Shown in pieces: positions 19,334 through 22,657 of a DNA stretch of 64,000 bases. Below the pieces are notes generated by a model. That model saw nothing but the letters and a program-made list of their open reading frames with translations. It made no database searches and was not told the origin of the DNA. Position 1 is the stretch's first letter, and each line of letters opens with the position of its first letter. The DNA is taken from positions 1 through 64,000 of the forward strand of contig NZ_FNQK01000013.1 of NCBI RefSeq assembly GCF_900107625.1, in the 5' to 3' direction. Position numbers and translations under genes: made by a program. The DNA comes from Bizionia paragorgiae (GTDB taxonomy: Bacteria; Bacteroidota; Bacteroidia; Flavobacteriales; Flavobacteriaceae).

Positions 19334-20188
19334 TTATTTTTTAAAACTACTTTTAAAAGCCTCTTGATAGGGATAATTAATTTCTAATTTCATACCCTGA
19401 CCGTTCGCTGTGGTTAATTTAAATTGAGCATTAATCAGTTCGGCTCTATTTCTCATATTAATGAGTCCCGATCCTTTTTCTGCTGAAGCTATATCGAAAC
19501 CAATACCATTATCTATCGCTGTAATGATTAAATGATCTTGGGTAAAATTAAGCACAATTTGAAAGGAAGTCGCTTTTGCGTATTTTATGGTATTCGAGAT
19601 ACATTCTTGGAGAATTCTAAATAAGATTATACTCTGCTTACCTTCAGTAAACAAAGCGGGATTACCCTTAACTTCTATGGAAGCATCAATTAACTTTAAT
19701 TTATTTAAGCGATTAATTTCACTGCTAATAGATTCTTGAAGTCCGCGATTAGAAATCACATCACTATTCAAGGTTTTAGACAAGGCTCGCAACTCGCTTA
19801 AACTATCTTTAACTGCTTGCTTGGTGTCGGTAAAAGACTCCTTAAGATCGGCAGGAACTTGCATGGCCAGAATACTCATATTCATATTGGCTACCGATAA
19901 TATTTGCCCCACATTATCGTGCAGCTCTTGTCCGATGTTTTTTAGTGTTTGCTCTTGAATTTCAATCTGAGTTATGGAAATTTCCTCTTGAAATGCTTGT
20001 TCACGTTCAATTTTCTCTAGAAGTAATTTATTTTTTCGTTTCTGAAATACAATAAAAAAGATAATAATAAGCGAGCAAACGATAAGTAAAACACCAATCA
20101 TATACGCTAATAAATAACGCTCTGCAGCCGTGGACACATTTTGTGTGCTTATTAAAATAAAAAACAATACTATATTCATAATTGGCAT
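19334..20188 (-). CDS. Membrane sensor histidine kinase, HisKA_3 (NarL-partner) type
   Basis: A 284-aa kinase with a signal-like N-terminus, one membrane segment (about 27-48), a short coiled coil, the HisKA_3 phospho-acceptor ELHDNVGQ (His90) and a HATPase_c domain with N box ECISNTIKYA and G box DNGIGFD. Such kinases normally pair with a LuxR/NarL-type response regulator, but none is adjacent. There is almost no sensory domain, so it may sense through a partner. It is the last gene of the minus-strand A1-B1-A2-B2 cluster, 49 nt from B2, which suggests those membrane proteins are its partners. Confidence 0.88.
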   Translation of the reverse strand: MPIMNIVLFFILISTQNVSTAAERYLLAYMIGVLLIVCSLIIIFFIVFQKRKNKLLLEKIEREQAFQEEISITQIEIQEQTLKNIGQELHDNVGQILSVANMNMSILAMQVPADLKESFTDTKQAVKDSLSELRALSKTLNSDVISNRGLQESISSEINRLNKLKLIDASIEVKGNPALFTEGKQSIILFRILQECISNTIKYAKATSFQIVLNFTQDHLIITAIDNGIGFDIASAEKGSGLINMRNRAELINAQFKLTTANGQGMKLEINYPYQEAFKSSFKK

Positions 20189-20237
20189 TTTAAAACTAGG
20201 GAATCTACAGTCAATTTACTCGTGCAACATAAGGACA

Positions 20238-20951
20238 CTATGAATTTTTTTTGAACTCTGGTTTACACCACCATAAAGCAAAACTAAATGTAAAATACAT
20301 AAACATATTGGCAAACAAGTGAATTTGCCATTTTAGGATTATAAAATTCCAATCGGCAGACCTAAAATATAAGTCATAAAATGTTAGAGGCGTTACAATA
20401 ATCCACCATAAAAAAATAGCGATAGTAATATAAAAATATAAGTGCTTATGCATCTGTAAAACAGCATCACTTTGTAGTAATTCGAATAAATAAAAAGCAC
20501 AACACATCAAAATAATTAGCGCTCCTAAAAGTTGAAAAACAGGAAATGTTTGTTTAAATAAGTCTTGGTAATTAATCAGAATAAAAATTACAGAAAAACC
20601 AAAATATAGAATGGTAGCAGCTTTAATAATCCGCTTAAACGCAATGGACTTAATTATTTTTTGATATAATACGGAGAACAATAAAATTACGCCTATATCG
20701 AAAGCTAAAGTATACCACCAATAATTTTTTCTAAAAACCGAATTATATAGGGGTTCTAAAAATTCAACCTTACCATAAAGTCTAGGGTAATTCCCTACTA
20801 ACTCAATAGCAAACAAGTAAAAAATTATAATTATAAAAAAAAACTCGGGGTTACCTTTGTACTTTTTAATTGAAAAAAGGCCGGCAAAAACAGCTATTAA
20901 TATTGTACTATTAGTCAGTAAGAAATAATTTTGTCGAAAAAACTCTTCCAA
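20238..20951 (-). CDS. Polytopic membrane protein B2 of a duplicated two-gene module
   Basis: A 237-aa integral membrane protein with six to seven hydrophobic segments and no catalytic motif. It is a clear paralogue of the protein at 21475-22188: same length, and aligned features such as MEEFFRQNYFLL versus LKDFILKNYSFL, IE(L/T).GNY after the second segment, KNYWW/KNYWL, LFKQTFPVFQLLGALIIL versus VLYSGFYTPITLLGLLTIL, and ITPLTFYD/TTPLEFYE. It starts 5 nt after A2's stop. Function unknown; a sensor or transport role alongside the downstream kinase is inference from order only. Confidence 0.8.
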   Translation of the reverse strand: MEEFFRQNYFLLTNSTILIAVFAGLFSIKKYKGNPEFFFIIIIFYLFAIELVGNYPRLYGKVEFLEPLYNSVFRKNYWWYTLAFDIGVILLFSVLYQKIIKSIAFKRIIKAATILYFGFSVIFILINYQDLFKQTFPVFQLLGALIILMCCAFYLFELLQSDAVLQMHKHLYFYITIAIFLWWIIVTPLTFYDLYFRSADWNFIILKWQIHLFANMFMYFTFSFALWWCKPEFKKNS

Positions 20952-20956
20952 AATAT

Positions 20957-21316
20957 TTAGTTTGGGTAGTCTTCACCTGGAGGCATACCATTAGCTCCCT
21001 TATCCATACCTCTAGCCTCTGGAATATCTTTATTCTCACTGTCAATTTCTTCTGTAGGCACCATAAATATTGTGGTTAATCCTTTTGGCGCTTCTTTTGT
21101 AGTCTGCACTCCCAAATAAAAGCGCACGCCATTTACTGTTGGATTTTCTGCCTTGATAAGGCTTAAAAATTGCTCCATATCCTCTAAAGAATACCAAGAC
21201 GAACGATTGTCGGGCTGCCCGGCCGCAGTCTCGTTTTCTTTAGCTCTTAAAGATGTCCAATTATCGTTTAACTCTTTAGCTTCTGCAGCGGTGATTATTC
21301 CTTTTGGTGTTGACAT
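20957..21316 (-). CDS. Small soluble protein A2 of the duplicated module
   Basis: A 119-aa protein without signal or membrane segment. It is paralogous to A1 at 22199: GIITAAEAKELNDNWTSLR, GQPDNRSSWYSLEDMEQFL, NGVRFYLGVQTT, TTIFMVPTE and KGANGMPPGEDYP match the A1 copy closely. Unlike A1 it lacks the N-terminal membrane anchor. No known domain is recognised. It lies between B1 and B2, reproducing the A-B order. Confidence 0.8.
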   Translation of the reverse strand: MSTPKGIITAAEAKELNDNWTSLRAKENETAAGQPDNRSSWYSLEDMEQFLSLIKAENPTVNGVRFYLGVQTTKEAPKGLTTIFMVPTEEIDSENKDIPEARGMDKGANGMPPGEDYPN

Positions 21317-21474
21317 TTAATGTTTTGGTTAATGGTTAATTAGAATCTAAAATTATAAAAAAATCTGTTAACAACACTACTGTAGTAGTTTTATTACAAA
21401 AAATATACAAAATTGCCTTTTCCAAAAACGTTAATCCTATTTAATATAACTTCAAACCACTTTACACCAATCAC

Positions 21475-22188
21475 TTAACTGTTTTTCGGATTAGAAACCA
21501 GTAAGCCAATTATGAAAATTAAATACATAAATACAATAGAGAATAGAAATACCATAAATTTAAAAAACACAAAACTATAATCATAGGCATTGAAGTATTT
21601 TTCATAAAACTCTAAAGGCGTTGTTAATAACCAAAAAACCAAAATACCACAACTAATATAAAACGTCATAGTTCTATAAAACACCAAAATAGTATTGGAG
21701 TTCGTGAGTTCTATAAAGTAAGAGAAAACCAAAAACAAAATGGTTAACAAGCCTAGTAATGTTATAGGGGTATAAAAGCCACTATATAACACGTGATAAT
21801 TTACACTTACTAAAACAATAGAAACTACGGCAAAAGAAATAGCTACATATTTTATACTTGTTTTTAAAGTCTTGTTTTTAATAATTTGATAGTAGTAGAA
21901 CGAAAAGAACAATGGACTACCAATAATCCAAAAGACCTGAAAAAGCCAATAATTTTTTACAAAAAGAGTATCCTCTACAAGGAAAAACAACCAACACAAG
22001 ACACCGTCTTTAGTTATCCATACGGTATAGTTCCCTAAGGTCTCTATAAGTAGCGCATAGGCTAAAAAGTAAATAAAATATTTTACTGGGGTATCCTTAT
22101 ATTTTCTAAAACTTAAAAAACCTACAACACATGCCAATAGCTCGATACTAAGGATTAAAAAACTGTAATTTTTAAGTATAAAATCTTT
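21475..22188 (-). CDS. Polytopic membrane protein B1 of the duplicated module, TTG start
   Basis: A 237-aa polytopic membrane protein, paralogue of B2. The longest frame starts at ATG 22233, overlapping A1 by 35 nt and adding 15 His-rich residues (MVCHHKQHTHNS...). A TTG codon at 22188 gives MKDFILKNYSFLILSIELLA, aligns exactly with B2's MEEFFRQNYFLL start, gives exactly the same length (237 aa), and sits 10 nt after the A1 stop. I therefore prefer TTG. Function unknown. Confidence 0.8.
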   Translation of the reverse strand, partial: KDFILKNYSFLILSIELLACVVGFLSFRKYKDTPVKYFIYFLAYALLIETLGNYTVWITKDGVLCWLFFLVEDTLFVKNYWLFQVFWIIGSPLFFSFYYYQIIKNKTLKTSIKYVAISFAVVSIVLVSVNYHVLYSGFYTPITLLGLLTILFLVFSYFIELTNSNTILVFYRTMTFYISCGILVFWLLTTPLEFYEKYFNAYDYSFVFFKFMVFLFSIVFMYLIFIIGLLVSNPKNS

Positions 22189-22198
22189 CAAAAAAATA

Positions 22199-22657
22199 CT
22201 ATTGTGGGTATGTTGCTTGTGGTGGCATACCATTACTGCCCATATCTAATACTTTGGCGGAAGAAATATCTTTGGTATCTCCGCGATCATCTTCAGTAGG
22301 AACGATAAATACTGTTGTATATCCTGTTTCGTCAGTTTCCGTTGTTTTCACCCCCAAATACAAACGAAAACCATTAACACGCTCTTGTTCCGTTTTCGTT
22401 AAGGCTATATAGTTTTCCATATCTTCCAAGGCATACCACGTAGAACGGTTGTCAGGTTTTCCTGCGGCACTATCGTTTGCCACCTTTCTAAGTGCAGTCC
22501 AATTTTCATCAAGCACTCTTGCTTGAGCCGGTGTAATTACACCTGATGGTACAGCAGGCGTGCCATTTCCAGGAGAAGATAATGTGCTTTTTAAAACGAA
22601 ATAGGTAACTCCTACTCCAACAACAAGTCCTAGTAATAAAATTCCAAATGTTTTCAT
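22199..22657 (-). CDS. Membrane-anchored protein A1 of the duplicated module
   Basis: A 152-aa protein: N-terminal membrane segment (about 5-22), a Gly/Pro-rich linker, then a domain shared with A2 (residues about 38-152) with GVITPAQARVLDENWTALR, GKPDNRSTWYALEDMENYI, NGFRLYLGVKTT, TTVFIVPTE and MGSNGMPPQATYPQ. The globular part is predicted outside the membrane. First gene of the A1-B1-A2-B2-kinase cluster. No recognised family. Confidence 0.8.
   Translation of the reverse strand: MKTFGILLLGLVVGVGVTYFVLKSTLSSPGNGTPAVPSGVITPAQARVLDENWTALRKVANDSAAGKPDNRSTWYALEDMENYIALTKTEQERVNGFRLYLGVKTTETDETGYTTVFIVPTEDDRGDTKDISSAKVLDMGSNGMPPQATYPQ

Follow-up and report, generated by a model that had tools for sequence, protein, structure and literature searches.

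Paired membrane proteins, a sensor-less histidine kinase and a candidate response regulator at another locus in Bizionia paragorgiae

The 64,000-nucleotide (nt) stretch of Bizionia paragorgiae analysed here (NZ_FNQK01000013.1, positions 1–64,000; called the window below) contains a minus-strand locus for two small partner proteins (A1 and A2), two polytopic membrane proteins (B1 and B2) and a histidine kinase (HK). On balance, it is probable that the A and B proteins are input subunits, with B as the receptor, that drive this kinase of one transmembrane (TM) helix, and that the output of the kinase has moved to RR26, a response regulator (RR) encoded elsewhere in the genome. The locus would then encode the sensor side, made up of several components, of a two-component pathway. 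Its five open reading frames (ORFs) run from 22657 to 19334 in the order A1-B1-A2-B2-kinase:

22199..22657, minus strand: A1, unnamed small domain protein of 152 amino acids (aa) with an N-terminal hydrophobic anchor (ORF, homology to A2)
21475..22191, minus strand: B1, stand-alone 7-TM membrane protein with a probable TTG start (fold predicted by homology to the B2 model)
20957..21316, minus strand: A2, paralogue of A1, 119 aa, without signal or anchor (ORF, homology, weak AlphaFold2 model)
20238..20951, minus strand: B2, stand-alone 7-TM membrane protein with a TTG start (predicted by an AlphaFold2 model and homology)
19334..20188, minus strand: minimal HisKA_3/HATPase_c histidine kinase, 284 aa, with one TM helix (Pfam, motifs, tree)

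This arrangement on one strand had been described in a first-pass annotation, with A1 anchored, A2 soluble, both B proteins polytopic, and a HisKA_3 kinase with almost no sensor domain and no adjoining regulator; all of it was confirmed. The same applies to the paralogy of the pairs. A1 and A2 share 53% identity (E 2e-48) and B1 and B2 share 35% (E 4e-37), both far beyond chance. The gaps measure 7 nt (A1-B1), 158 nt (B1-A2), 5 nt (A2-B2) and 49 nt (B2-kinase), the first of them with a shifted B1 start. The B1 ORF was called as 22233–21475, and its ATG at 22233 falls within A1. The true start is most likely TTG 22191, 7 nt past the A1 stop. B2 starts with TTG 20951, 5 nt past the A2 stop, and both junctions share one layout, in which no more than 7 nt separate the A stop from the TTG of B. 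Consensus scans of the locus for promoters and terminators, including sigma-70 and Bacteroidota -7 motifs, were at chance level. No further copies of A or B beyond the two pairs were found in the 3.14-Mb genome that contains the window.

Non-ATG starts are also frequent among B genes elsewhere. When the most upstream start of each gene is taken, TTG or GTG starts are seen in 55 of 92 B genes, against 7 of 72 for A and 13 of 64 for the kinase (62 loci, including the window at 22191 and 20951). This bias suggests that the putative receptor is translated weakly relative to A.

The A-B-kinase order was searched for in 249 Flavobacteriaceae genomes and in 395 Bacteroidota genomes. A scan of public genomes gave six complete loci in Lacinutrix, Mesoflavibacter and Olleya, each with two A genes, two to four B genes and one kinase gene; A is always first and the kinase always last. 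Of the 249 Flavobacteriaceae genomes, 137 have A, 138 have B, and 123 have a close relative of the kinase. When the listed coordinates are pooled, all three are clustered in 98 genomes. There are 83 clusters of the order A>B>kinase, besides ABBH, ABABH, ABBBH and similar orders, and several clusters without B held a diverged B on closer reading. The median gap between B and the kinase is -4 nt, that is, an overlap. A or B adjoins 128 of the 150 close kinases listed. Across Bacteroidota, A is present in 39 genomes and B in 65, and B lies within 1.2 kb of 53 of the 54 A matches. Of 18 distant loci in which B is a stand-alone protein, every one has a HisKA_3-type kinase directly downstream, and 17 have a NarL-type regulator after it. 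The order is thus conserved in Flavobacteriaceae, as the first-pass annotation had proposed to check, and A and B are not found mostly apart from kinases. The same annotation saw a two-receptor unit in which A-B pairs sense and the kinase transmits. A receptor-like, seven-helix B fits this proposal, but the doubling is not general: one A-B pair is the usual state among relatives, some carry as many as four B genes, and the tandem arrays reflect an expansion specific to the lineage.

The window kinase matches HisKA_3 (43.5 bits) and HATPase_c (36.8 bits) above the Pfam cut-offs and contains the H, N and G boxes, which places it in the HisKA_3 type. A single TM helix is predicted, and a sensor domain is absent. 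One TM helix is also the rule in the sampled loci (61 of 64 kinases), and the TM segment is near-invariant in the closest relatives. Two kinases are seen close together at L190, L191, L181, L194 and L058, in the order B-HK-HK-RR or B-HK-B-HK-RR; such paired kinases might act as heterodimers.

Of the 64 kinase loci, 25 have a NarL-type regulator (Response_reg + GerE) directly after the kinase, and 39 lack it. Based on the maximum-likelihood tree, the 39 regulator-less Flavobacteriaceae kinases, including that of the window, form one clade with support 100/100, beside a clade of regulator-bearing kinases. Several loci with and without the regulator are at the same genomic site, where their neighbors are the convergent genes for pseudouridine synthase and panB. 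Ancestrally, the operon ran A-B-kinase-NarL regulator, and the tree places a single loss of the operon regulator in the clade of 39 kinases. The window genome contains no orthologue of the operon regulator, its best match being 5.6e-28 against ~1e-100 for orthologues elsewhere, so a complete two-component system is present neither at the locus nor by way of an orthologous regulator at another site. Among genomes with a regulator-less operon, only some have such an orthologue, and these hold a second A/HK locus beside it. The kinase had been called an orphan. It has indeed no adjoining regulator, but it is an orphan only secondarily, from an operon that ended with a NarL-type regulator.

The loss of the regulator could be taken as a sign that what remains of an A-B-kinase-regulator operon is in decay and no longer has any function. 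The state of the genes makes this very improbable. The phospho-accepting His, DxxxQ, the N-box and the G-boxes are kept in 38–39 of the 39 kinases of the clade, kinase identity between genera is 51–55%, and the reading frames of A and B are open, with their copy number expanded.

RR26 is a NarL-type regulator with an intact receiver, located at 73540–74187 of contig C26 in the window genome. Its neighbors there are an aspartyl protease (AspP) and a CHAT-TPR protein. The RR26 locus is orthologous throughout, with the aspartyl protease upstream and usually sucB downstream. Where the A-B-kinase locus lacks its regulator (29 genomes), RR26 invariably comes directly after the protease, with no kinase. 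In all seven examined genomes with the complete operon, a kinase of 671–692 aa lies between the protease and RR26, as it does in G041, which has no A-B-kinase locus. One complete-operon genome, G021, was left out of this count; its RR26 relative is more distant (42%), is found in another place, and adjoins a kinase. The ancestral order of the RR26 locus is protease-kinase-regulator. Because of this reciprocal loss, RR26 is most likely the cognate regulator of the window kinase, as judged from gene content. The simplest reading suggests a swap, in which the regulator of one system and the kinase of the other disappeared and the leftovers now form one pathway.

Two other genes were considered in this context. 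The window genome has two HisKA_3 kinases, that of the window and one on contig C35, which has its own regulator. The latter was rejected as a moved RR26 kinase, with 25–29% identity to the lost kinase and with that regulator beside it. In the other regulator-less genomes, the RR26 neighborhood alone was read for the RR26 kinase, and a moved kinase is possible in each. The second gene is a NarL-type regulator between dnaG and nadE-gldBC (contig C30, L115:2451-3077), in which Glu replaces the phospho-Asp. It is present in 36 of 37 genomes of both kinds, with Glu at this position in nearly all, and was set aside as a partner of the kinase on these two grounds. This regulator is near-universal across the Flavobacteriaceae sampled. 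In some genomes, a CHAT-TPR protein with a caspase-like domain is encoded upstream of the protease and RR26 (L117:7154-9754, L219, L220, L222, L229, L239, L243, L246, L249).

The B proteins show no family match in Pfam, NCBIfam or PDB. With 44 B members, Pfam gave no transporter or enzyme family and just two isolated weak DUF matches. The PDB profile search with B returned nothing, and no sequence similarity to G protein-coupled receptors (GPCRs) was found. The AlphaFold2 model of B2, with 19 B proteins as input, predicts seven TM helices (predicted local distance difference test (pLDDT) 90; predicted TM-score (pTM) 0.87). Foldseek ranks GPCRs and microbial rhodopsins first with this model, all at E-values >0.02, which are not significant. 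VIA-align gives Z 12.9 with 201–215 residues aligned and a root-mean-square deviation of 3.7–4.4 Å; 954 of 1000 chains have Z ≥8, and the chains listed are GPCRs or GPCR-like domains. Because such Z values in helical bundles can mirror a common arrangement, the modelled fold indicates GPCR/rhodopsin-like resemblance and not membership, and it is suggestive only. The topology of B fits N-out/C-in, because the positive charges are mostly in loops 1, 3 and 5 and at the C-terminus. Among the TM7 columns conserved at ≥75% across the 44 B proteins there is no Lys; with the lysine for retinal thus not conserved, B is probably not a retinal protein. Pfam matches to rhodopsins are likewise absent from the 44. 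Strongly conserved polar residues are few. Weak B-like matches (E 8e-5 to 3e-4) are seen inside ORFs of 820–847 aa at L197 (genome G358) and G529:C1:2722677-2723027, where B-like domains are possibly fused to larger proteins.

A polytopic protein with a small partner, often anchored or a lipoprotein, would also be expected if B were a transporter, transceptor or membrane enzyme; the kinase would then read the transport or catalytic state of B, and A would be the substrate-binding subunit. Transporter-kinase units such as BceAB-BceS are known (PMC11109136). However, the Pfam search of the 44 B members argues against such a role, the nearest folds are receptors and rhodopsins, and few polar residues are strongly conserved; we regard this explanation as unlikely.

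The A proteins also match no family in Pfam, NCBIfam or PDB. Matches were isolated and at chance level in Pfam (48 A members) and at chance level in the PDB profile search. The core of A has near-invariant G, R, Y, T, F and P-T positions. The C-terminus is also conserved, as N-x-G-x-PP-x-x-YP, with CPP-x-C in distant members. The AlphaFold2 model of A2 has two helices and beta strands at low confidence (pLDDT 69.8), and the fold search with this weak model gave no fold match (best VIA Z 2.8). By a simple rule-based call, A members are TM-anchored, lipoproteins or without signal, and every group examined is a mix; the counts are rough, as at least one evident lipoprotein (L189) was scored as having no signal. 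The A domain is exported in some lineages and signal-less in neighboring ones: it is a lipoprotein at L179, L183 and L185 and has no signal at L182, L184 and L186. The window itself holds both forms, the anchored A1 and A2 without signal. A1 is probably exported.

With a small protein, a polytopic protein, a kinase and a regulator, the order of the ancestral operon resembles agrBDCA. Together with the conserved C-terminus of A, it brings to mind cell-cell signaling as in agr, in which A would be the signal or its precursor, B would export or process it, and the kinase, with B, would sense it. But A is conserved over its whole length like a folded domain, many A proteins are lipoproteins or anchored, and none of the 44 B proteins matches AgrB or any peptidase family. 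An agr-like system is therefore, if anything, even less likely than a transporter-like one.

If B is a receptor, each A-B pair would be an input unit in which A is a small partner domain. Because the kinase offers a single TM helix and lacks a sensor domain, B may pass its signal to the kinase through the membrane, by helix-helix contact, by analogy with sensory rhodopsins and their transducers. With two A-B pairs on one kinase, two signals could converge, or the receptors could form heteromers. The output would go by phosphotransfer to RR26, a regulator left without a kinase of its own in the genomes that lack the operon regulator. It can be speculated, with about even chances, that this is a phylum-wide system in which stand-alone GPCR-like receptors and their small partners control a sensor-less kinase in trans and the receptors have multiplied. 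In one clade, two two-component systems would then have merged by reciprocal loss, and the kinase would now drive the regulator of the other system.

Several facts weigh against signaling from A-B through the kinase to RR26. For a helical bundle, the Z of 12.9 obtained with B lies about at the limit of the values that a common arrangement can produce, and the Foldseek E-values are all above 0.02. A is both exported and signal-less, which no simple co-receptor model accounts for. RR26 matches are seen in 37 of 37 genomes with A-B-kinase and in 1 of 17 without, a contrast that favors the pathway but is confounded by phylogeny. Both losses are in the same clade as far as sampled and count as a single coincidence in evolution rather than as 29 independent cases. 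Nor is the co-evolution test by distance matrix specific, as the partial r between the kinase and RR26 (0.44) equals that between the kinase and the protease (0.44). The search for a cognate LuxR-type regulator, which the first-pass annotation had recommended, thus gave a candidate by reciprocal loss but no specific co-evolution signal.

The single-clade pattern and the non-specific matrix test would equally be seen if the sensor module is as described and its kinase cross-talks to other regulators, of the NarL, LytTR or OmpR type. In that case the RR26 kinase would have been lost by coincidence, and RR26, which predates the loss and then had its own kinase, would be activated by small-molecule phosphodonors or otherwise. 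Against this, the kinase-less RR26 has been kept in 29 of 29 regulator-less genomes and is absent from 16 of 17 genomes without A-B-kinase, and the other kinase-less NarL-type regulator of the window genome has Glu at the phospho-Asp position. Cross-talk is the most serious of the alternatives, although its probability appears rather low, and signaling from A-B through the kinase to RR26 is preferred here.

Among known systems, archaeal sensory rhodopsins I and II with their Htr transducers are similar in that the gene of a stand-alone 7-TM protein is beside that of a separate signaling protein with a short TM input. They differ from the present locus, in which B has no conserved retinal lysine, the partner is itself a kinase, a small A protein is added, and several B proteins may accompany one kinase. 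GPCRs share with B the predicted seven-helix bundle and the N-out/C-in topology, but no G protein is encoded in the operon. The 7TMR-DISM and the 5TMR-LYT/LytS-type kinases (BtsS, YpdA) also couple a multi-helix membrane receptor to a histidine kinase. In the LytS-type kinases, including BtsS (PMC10653868) and those with the S-component fold (PMC11109136), the receptor and the kinase share a polypeptide, whereas the genes are separate here. The 44 B proteins show no Pfam match to 7TMR-DISM, and no match to the LytS-type 5TM model. Systems of the NarXL/UhpBA/DesKR type share the kinase family, the DxxxQ motif and, in the ancestral operon, the NarL-type regulator. They differ in that the present kinase is sensor-less, its inputs would come in trans from A-B, and the regulator was lost in the clade. 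Nothing matching was found in openly accessible papers on separate 7-TM receptors with A-like partners, orphan flavobacterial kinases or such rewiring; subscription papers and preprints were mostly outside the scope, so this is no proof of novelty.

In bacteria, a receptor with several helices usually forms one protein with its effector. Separate receptors with a bare kinase in common, belonging to a large unnamed family, would, if real, be a bacterial counterpart of receptor-effector modularity. The exchange of partners between kinase and regulator would be a natural and testable case of rewiring, with both the ancestral and the derived states in cultivable flavobacteria, and its changes of specificity might be traced residue by residue. 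A likely partner is named for an orphan kinase found in dozens of genera, and two uncharacterized protein families, A and B, gain a context.

Genes for LamB/YcsF and carboxyltransferase A/B (5-oxoprolinase-like) are, in a subset of genomes, often found upstream of A-B-kinase, as at L062, L071, L069, L056 and other loci.

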